A stretch of DNA of 64,000 bases from Lagopus muta. Taxonomy: Eukaryota > Chordata > Aves > Galliformes > Phasianidae. The translations under genes and the position numbers were made by a program. The number at the start of each line of letters is the position of its first letter. Position 1 is the stretch's first letter. The stretch lies in the NCBI RefSeq assembly GCF_023343835.1, contig NC_064435.1:79432134-79496133 (forward strand). The letters are read 5' to 3'. Under the pieces are notes generated by a model that worked only from the letters and a program-made list of their open reading frames with translations, did no database searches and was not told the origin of the DNA. Below are positions 55,013 through 55,957 of the stretch, one piece after another.

Positions 55013-55957
55013 ATGGACGTGGCATCTGACTGGGTCTGCCCCATCTGTGGGCAAATTCGGGAGGATGTCACCTACGTGACCCCCTGCCAGCACCAGCTGT
55101 GCTACGGCTGTGCCATCTGGTGGGCCTACAAGAAGCCGAGTTGTGCCGTATGCGGGCACAAAATTACAACTATCCGATACTCGGTGAGGTCGGATGATGA
55201 CTTCCTCGAGTGTGCTGTCCCGCAGCCCGCAGCGCACTCAGACCAAGATCAAGGCCTGCAGGAGGAGCAGGGGCCTGCAGAGCCGGTGCTCATCCCACCT
55301 GAGCACAACTTTCCAGCCGAGGTCTGGGCTGCATTTTTCAGAGAACATCAGGGAGACCTCGAACCCCTGCTCCAATGGCTGCAGGAGGAGATCCAGCAGC
55401 AGTCCAGCGATGACTGGTGGGAAGTCCATGCGGGACAGTGGACCACCATGAACTTCCTCTGTGAGCATGGACTGGACGAGGAGGCCTTGCTGCAGGCGCT
55501 GCAGCTGATCACCAACGGCGATGTGGTGCCCTTCGTGAGAAGGCTCATCGGCACCGCAGCAGCCCTGTACGGCCCCACGATCCGCCACGAGCTGGACCAC
55601 CAGGACAGCCACGCTGCTGGAGGACGGGAGGACAGCCCTGCAGCCTGCGCCGTCAGCAGCACCTCCCATCTGGAGCCTCCCGCCTCGGGCCCAGGCCGCT
55701 CCACCAGCCCCGCAGGGCCCAGCGCCGAGGAGCTGCCCGGCAGCTCTCCTGGGGGACCCGGGCGCCCCAGCACCGCCACCGCGCCCTCAGCGGAGGAGCC
55801 CCAGGAGGAGCCAGGGCAGGCGGCGGCAGCGGGCCCCTCCACCCAGGGCAGGGACCGCTCGCGTGGGGGGCCCCGGCGCCCCCCAAAGAGGAAGGCCAGC
55901 AGCAGCCGCCAGGACTCGTCCCCACCCCGCAAGAGGCGGCCCCGGCGGCGGCGCTAG
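55013..55957 (+). CDS. TOPORS-like RING-finger protein, copy B, intact 314-aa ORF
   Basis: The ORF opens at an ATG in GCCATGG context (an in-frame TTG at 54941 is not needed) and ends TAG. Residues 9-47 form a C3HC4 RING: Cys9, Cys12, Cys25, His27, Cys30, Cys33, Cys44, Cys47, with TOPORS-type spacing. Residues about 101-200 look helical ([14 protein letters not shown], then [14 protein letters not shown] and FVRRLIGTAAALY). After about 205 comes a low-complexity Pro/Ser/Gly/Glu stretch, then a basic tail (PKRKASSSR, PPRKRRPRRRR) that looks like a nuclear localisation signal. Known TOPORS is about three times longer, so this is a short relative; I recall many TOPORS-like loci in bird annotations but could not check. 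Inference: a nuclear E3 ligase of unknown substrate. No second gene accompanies it. Confidence 0.8.
   Translation: MDVASDWVCPICGQIREDVTYVTPCQHQLCYGCAIWWAYKKPSCAVCGHKITTIRYSVRSDDDFLECAVPQPAAHSDQDQGLQEEQGPAEPVLIPPEHNFPAEVWAAFFREHQGDLEPLLQWLQEEIQQQSSDDWWEVHAGQWTTMNFLCEHGLDEEALLQALQLITNGDVVPFVRRLIGTAAALYGPTIRHELDHQDSHAAGGREDSPAACAVSSTSHLEPPASGPGRSTSPAGPSAEELPGSSPGGPGRPSTATAPSAEEPQEEPGQAAAAGPSTQGRDRSRGGPRRPPKRKASSSRQDSSPPRKRRPRRRR

Follow-up and report, generated by a model that had tools for sequence, protein, structure and literature searches.

Does the 314-codon open reading frame at positions 55013 to 55957 of the window, by which we mean the whole 64,000-nucleotide stretch of Lagopus muta DNA analyzed here, belong to a working gene, and to which family does that gene belong? 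The initial annotation described a short gene resembling TOPORS, with a start codon in strong context, a complete RING, an NLS-like tail, and a leader intron. Each of these features was recovered, and we consider it probable that the frame, here called copy B, codes for a protein and belongs to a large family of short TOPORS paralogs, for which we propose a nuclear E3 role.

Copy B and its surroundings

The features of copy B and of the DNA around it are given below as positions in the window.

53842..54061, + strand: duplicated upstream flank of copy B, 90% identical to the flank of copy A
54092..54617, + strand: 5' end of a type IV gene (upstream DNA, exon 1, intron, and start of exon 2), joined to the type I leader at 54617/54618
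54154..54161, + strand: CRE/ATF-type octamer TGATGTCA within the type IV remnant, from a motif scan
54806..54923, + strand: leader intron (GT at 54806, AG at 54922-54923), at a position conserved across subfamilies
55013..55957, + strand: coding sequence of copy B, 314 amino acids, family type I; the sister copies L002-L005 are 95% to 96% identical to it as proteins
55034..55171, + strand: C3HC4 RING, residues 8-53 (Pfam PF13920)
55310..55600, + strand: central domain, residues 100-196, from hhalign of the family profile against the post-RING domain of TOPORS
55868..55954, + strand: Arg/Lys-rich, NLS-like tail, from the sequence
56046..56415 (ends approximate), + strand: dispersed repeat of about 370 nt in the 3'UTR, absent from sister L002
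56418..56423, + strand: AATAAA, displaced in comparison with the sisters

The start codon lies in the context GGGGCCATGG. The RING matched the Pfam family zf-C3HC4_3 with an E value of 5.6e-8 and a score above the Pfam cut-off, and its cysteine and histidine residues, W37, and others were invariant in an alignment of 24 family representatives. To the remaining 23 of these, the copy B protein is 31% to 78% identical. For the central part, no Pfam family was matched even at E 10, and NCBIfam gave a single sub-threshold rubredoxin match for copy B and none for TOPORS. The tail is basic (PKRKASSSRQDSSPPRKRRPRRRR), and a short basic tail forms the C-terminal end of all 24 representatives. From the RING and the basic tail, the protein can be labeled a putative nuclear E3 ligase.

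The gene had been described as lying in otherwise empty DNA, with at least 2 copies of the family within 15 kb. The first of these statements was not borne out, as exons of VPS4B and presumably KDSR lie on the minus strand to the left and a second copy, here called copy A, is located within a VPS4B intron. The following features were identified in this part of the window.

5900..17400 (approximate), - strand: presumed KDSR exons and a G+C-rich 5' region, named from motifs in the exon pieces
36100..47800 (approximate), - strand: VPS4B exons, from exon pieces that match VPS4B chains
39833..40054, + strand: duplicated upstream flank of copy A, 90% identical to 53842-54061
40094..40101, + strand: TGAGGTCA, which differs from the family CRE by one base and lies at the conserved distance in copy A
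40354..40471, + strand: leader intron of copy A (L009), with the donor 207 nt and the acceptor 89 nt before the ATG
40561..41253, + strand: coding sequence of copy A, 230 amino acids, truncated and frameshifted near residue 201, from alignment with copy B

The VPS4B assignment is based on 143 amino acids from joined exon pieces, which matched the VPS4B chains 2zam, 1xwi, and 7l9x with E values down to 5e-90, and copy A is antisense to the gene, flanked by its exon pieces at about 42.59 and 39.41 kb. The pieces further to the left of both copies are presumably KDSR, judging by their motifs. It was also noted that copies of a single repeat, which measure up to about 200 bp and are probably CR1-like by their translated end, occur on both strands at window positions 10023, 13321, 15847, 17988, 25152, 34176, and 46890.

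As to the claimed second copy, copy A was indeed found 14.45 kb upstream of copy B, but it is not intact. It has a 4-codon deletion and an 8-nt frame-shifting deletion near residue 201, and is without the basic tail. The segments 54618-55670 and 40166-41198 are common to copies B and A, respectively, with 95% identity when gaps are counted, and the comparison of the 2 copies gave a dS of 0.060 and a dN of 0.031 (ratio 0.5, 22 changes).

The leader intron of copy B is supported by matching donors and acceptors that recur across the family genes, but the DNA upstream of it has been replaced. In the sisters L002-L005, a CRE octamer is located 467 to 471 nt above the ATG, and the CRE-bearing proximal upstream DNA, which has been kept in these sisters and in L008, is missing from copy B. 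Homology between copy B and most of its sisters ends at -395 (at -408 in the comparison with L004). Positions 54092-54589 showed instead 75% to 77% identity to 3 genes of another subfamily, type IV, and a fourth type IV gene matched from 54189. We noted that L006, L007 (from about base 400), L012, and L013 contain a type IV-like RING open reading frame of 141 amino acids on the same strand upstream of a type I gene, and that the genome matches at these frames carry 1 or 2 in-frame TGA codons. From this order in the 4 regions, the unit with a type IV gene ahead of a type I gene appears to be the older one, and a deletion that joined a type I gene to the start of a type IV gene seems to have given rise to copy B.

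Downstream of the gene, the annotated AATAAA is present at 56418, but it has been displaced by the repeat of about 370 nt in front of it, whereas the signal is located 84 nt after the stop codon in the sisters L002-L005. At least 39 other matches to this repeat were identified in the genome, with 66% to 80% identity and many of them end to end; contig C57 holds 8 of the 39 other listed matches. The AATAAA and poly-A were also considered as the end of a retroposed sequence, an idea that was rejected since the sister comparison revealed a repeat inserted before the native signal. The description of copy B as an intact gene was accordingly correct for the reading frame, which is full, but not clearly for the regulatory DNA, with its replaced upstream region and the repeat in its 3'UTR.

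Since the frame is intact but the upstream region has been replaced, the expression of copy B is uncertain, and the gene may have lost its own promoter. It could then be that the family is functional while copy B is a fresh relic, which is open because of its youth, promoterless, and makes no protein. The loss of the CRE-bearing DNA at the 54617/54618 junction and the repeat in the 3'UTR are in line with this explanation, as is the state of the neighboring copy A, which is already truncated and has a one-base variant of the CRE. We nevertheless consider a relic unlikely, given that the frame is fully intact with just 24 nucleotide differences from L002 across 314 codons, that the leader splice sites are intact, and that copy B could be driven by the upstream region, exon 1, and intron of type IV that precede it.

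Size, regulation and evolution of the family

To count the copies, as suggested in the initial annotation, the genome (1.03 Gb, 165 contigs) was searched with the copy B protein. Of the 238 candidates from the first look, 126 were scored, and the resulting counts are lower bounds. At least 138 matches were obtained, which corresponded to at least 123 loci when matches less than 900 bp apart were joined. These consisted of 89 full loci without a stop codon (match starting at or before query position 10 and ending at or after 300), 18 loci with a stop codon, and 16 partial loci that were open. The 89 listed full loci were located on contigs C59 (35 loci), C1 (21), C3 (11), C17 (9), C21 (8), C10 (3), C28 (1), and C7 (1), and most full members are about 300 to 360 amino acids long. 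When 2 other members served as queries, 184 and 123 matches were obtained, including some at new places, such as C10:42.78 Mb. There is hence strong support for the proposal that the gene is part of a fast-evolving family of RING genes like TOPORS, and the family is far larger than had been guessed.

The members are found both in tandem and dispersed. We tested 11 tandem arrays with periods of 2.2 to 4.7 kb, in 10 of which the units were 98% to 99.96% identical, compared to 79% in the remaining array. At G000:C59:36933691-36949870, there were 5 equal-scoring matches located 3805 bp apart, and the 2 proteins compared were identical, which represents either a very young array or an effect of the assembly.

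For further analyses, 48 regions were taken from across the clusters, and 59 coding sequences of at least 200 amino acids from ATG to stop were extracted; L015 and L019 yielded none. These genes were picked as intact, and live copies are therefore over-represented in the set. The tree contained 4 supported clades, which we refer to as types: type I, with genes from C3, C17, C28, C21, a single entry from C1, and the window; type II, with a branch from C1; type III; and type IV.

A CRE/ATF-type octamer, TGA[C/T]GTCA or TGAC[A/G]TCA, was identified within 1 kb upstream of 42 of the 59 genes, compared to 6 of 59 downstream controls; an exact CRE was missing from this interval in 17 genes. In 35 of the 38 genes with both a CRE and an AGGTGAG donor, the element was located 250 to 300 nt above the donor, as opposed to none of 467 control windows, although these counts come from related copies and are hence not independent. 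One-base variants of the CRE were present at 238 to 285 nt in 5 of the 7 genes examined from C17 and C21, and at 332 and 364 nt in 2 of 4 type IV genes, the other 2 being without. None of the TATA, GC box, NRF1, RFX, MYB, CCAAT, and E-box motifs occurred upstream above the shuffled control. The half-site CRE was found in 13 of 23 genes versus 9.8 in the shuffled control, such that the full octamer and its position were the only features to stand out. As many copies share the CRE/ATF element, the family members are probably switched on together, and they may be regulated by CREB, ATF, or CREM, perhaps in germ cells.

The dN/dS ratios of the paralogs, also suggested in the initial annotation, were estimated from 17 disjoint pairs. 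For the RING, there were 86 synonymous changes at 826 sites versus 100 nonsynonymous changes at 2744 sites, which gave a ratio of 0.33 (Fisher test, p 1.4e-12) and indicates purifying selection, with the reservation that gene conversion also lowers the divergence of the RING and that conversion and constraint are only partly separated. The ratios for the other parts were 0.63 for the linker, 0.53 for the center, 0.70 for the proximal tail, and 0.50 for the distal tail. In the 6 copies of the copy B cluster, with copy A left out, the corresponding values were 0.21 for the RING, 0.33 for the linker, 0.34 for the center, 1.22 for the proximal tail, which is near neutral in this cluster, and 0.46 for the distal tail. 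On average, the members are thus protein-coding genes in which the RING is protected and the proximal tail is almost free to change.

Mosaics were observed in 5 of 7 paralog pairs, all 7 of which were picked after the divergence profiles had been viewed. The pair L016/L017 on C21 differed by 1 synonymous and 2 nonsynonymous changes in the RING and distal tail, compared to 22 synonymous and 64 nonsynonymous changes in the middle. The leader, the RING, and the tail of the 2 genes were about 99% identical, whereas codons 121-180 were 54% to 58% identical. The upstream sequences were 97% to 100% identical to about -550, save for gaps of 25 and 43, and 78% to 87% identical beyond that point. The likeness stopped about 100 nt past the stop codon, and the BLAST match extended from -775 to +1001. 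Similar contrasts were seen in L044/L045, 2 copies of L045, L036/L043, and L024/L025, with Fisher tests on synonymous sites from 1e-6 to 0.009, and the divergent block in L024/L025 was the proximal tail. No significant mosaic was detected in the pairs L001/L002 (0.53) and L010/L011 (0.12). Block conversion or exchange would be the simplest cause of these patterns.

Alternatively, the whole family could be imagined as passenger ampliconic DNA that was spread by unequal exchange and conversion and is useless to the host. The near-identical tandem arrays, the loss of homology at most a few hundred bases away from many genes, and the dead copies (18 of the 123 listed loci contain stops) would agree with this explanation. 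It is, however, highly improbable in view of the low dN/dS ratio of the RING in the disjoint pairs and the 89 of 123 listed loci that are open from end to end. Furthermore, the leader splice sites and the CRE are conserved between subfamilies whose proteins are only 31% to 39% identical to copy B.

Kinship with TOPORS

With a type III member as the query, a RING was identified in a 1066-codon open frame at C59:69.92 Mb (L049). The 1051-amino-acid reading of this frame we take to be TOPORS, based on its likeness to the human sequence. An hhalign comparison of the family profile with this TOPORS from the same genome aligned 217 columns across the RING and the center (probability 99.6, E 4.7e-24), and copy B alone gave BLASTP E values of 2e-13 for the RING and 5e-5 for the center. 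The likeness to TOPORS in the original description thus holds against the genome's own TOPORS over both the RING and the central domain.

The predicted intron structure is also shared. In TOPORS, the codon of the first RING cysteine is preceded by a likely acceptor at a distance of 111 nt, and the predicted leader acceptor in the family was located 100 to 113 nt before the same codon in 54 of 59 genes, with 5 genes lacking it. Counted from the ATG, the acceptor was located 76 to 104 nt upstream in 54 of 59 genes, and the donor 166 to 321 nt upstream in 54 of 59 genes, 5 being without. Because the intron position is shared with TOPORS, we infer that the family grew by DNA duplication rather than retroposition. 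A processed retrocopy was rejected on the basis of the conserved leader intron (donor and acceptor each in 54 of 59 genes), and the conserved intron and the TOPORS match also argue against an origin from a retroelement, a best match to an unrelated retroelement protein being one of the outcomes that the initial annotation had named as counting against its proposal. In a quick tree to which TOPORS had been added, it joined types III and IV, on a long branch with an odd composition and with an unsure root.

It is extremely improbable that the family represents a captured viral or retroelement RING of the ICP0 type: among solved structures, the best sequence match is the RING of equine herpesvirus 1 (1chc; E 1.5e-7 for copy B and 1.9e-20 for the family profile), but this match is confined to the RING region, whereas TOPORS, which was not among the listed chains, matches both the RING and the center and shares the intron position. 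In viral contigs, 24 pattern matches were obtained, none of which tblastn confirmed as a relative.

The long RS-rich C-terminal region of TOPORS is absent from the 24 representatives. Since they end in a short basic tail instead, we have classified the family as TOPORS-derived paralogs rather than as TOPORS. According to PMC11402782, TOPORS acts in the nucleus of human cells as a SUMO-targeted ubiquitin ligase, and 4 SUMO-binding motifs were counted in it. A pattern scan for SIM-like motifs, which misses some of the reported TOPORS motifs, identified 2 in TOPORS and any such motif in 3 of the 59 members, suggesting that SUMO targeting has probably been lost in the family.

Additional TOPORS-like sequences were noted on C59. 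L051 (G000:C59:68962700-68964200) is a TOPORS paralog about 1 Mb from TOPORS with an acceptor of the same type and RS-like parts, and its fetched frame is without the central domain. L050 (C59:15.64 Mb) and L052 (C59:23.13 Mb) are further TOPORS-like RING frames of about 240 amino acids.

If copy B is a protein-coding member of this family, as we favor, a TOPORS duplicate would have been shortened and subsequently multiplied by DNA duplication. By analogy with TOPORS and other RING ligases, the RING would recruit a ubiquitin-loaded E2, the basic tail would direct nuclear import, and substrates would be picked by the variable center rather than by SUMO-binding motifs. Such a ligase might act in a germ-line or immune setting. 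More tentatively, and as less likely than not, we raise the possibility that about 100 nuclear ubiquitin ligases in birds form a constant/variable set. Conversion would homogenize the upstream DNA, the leader, the RING, and the basic tail, and the center that chooses the substrate would be swapped between paralogs blockwise and diversify, driven by a conflict with viruses, with transposons, or with drivers on the sex chromosomes. In that case, the germ line would be pointed to by the shared CRE in combination with the presence of 35 of the 89 full copies on C59, the TOPORS-bearing contig, whose 75 Mb would fit the Z chromosome.

Relation to known systems

In birds, an entry named "E3 ubiquitin-protein ligase Topors-like" appears with the value -2.85 among the expression changes tabulated for chicken liver (PMC7563548). 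The name fits the family, and the likeness is by name alone, the table giving neither sequence nor copy number. A topors signal was reported in embryonic gonads of the duck, in a passage that does not specify the gene measured (PMC9643717), and the word "topors" is absent from the main text of PMC9974502. The liver entry and the gonad signal are leads only for the family. No account of an expansion of TOPORS-like genes was found in searches of the open-license literature.

More than 100 shortened relatives of TOPORS with a protected RING and a center that has been swapped in several pairs suggest an unstudied layer of nuclear protein turnover, in which each central variant could serve as a natural bait for its own target. 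Annotators should be aware that the name "Topors-like" may cover a very large family.

The TRIM and KRAB zinc finger families are amplified vertebrate families in genetic conflict, with many paralogs, a constant effector part, and a fast-changing recognition part, and the TOPORS-like family resembles them in these 3 respects. It differs from them in having another ancestor and no B-box, of which there was none among the Pfam matches to E 1 for 2 proteins or to E 0.1 for 5 proteins. The ICP0-type RING of equine herpesvirus 1 is alike in the RING and the segment after it, with no match beyond. In contrast to SUMO-targeted ubiquitin ligases, the family has few SIM-like motifs by the pattern scan. 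The closest likeness is to TOPORS itself, with which the family shares the C3HC4 RING, the VRxxDDF-type segment after it, the central domain, and an intron just before the RING exon. The differences are in length, 1051 amino acids in TOPORS versus the much shorter full members, in the RS region, and in number, with a single long-frame TOPORS among the matches listed as opposed to at least 123 family loci. The family is a strongly amplified and shortened TOPORS lineage.
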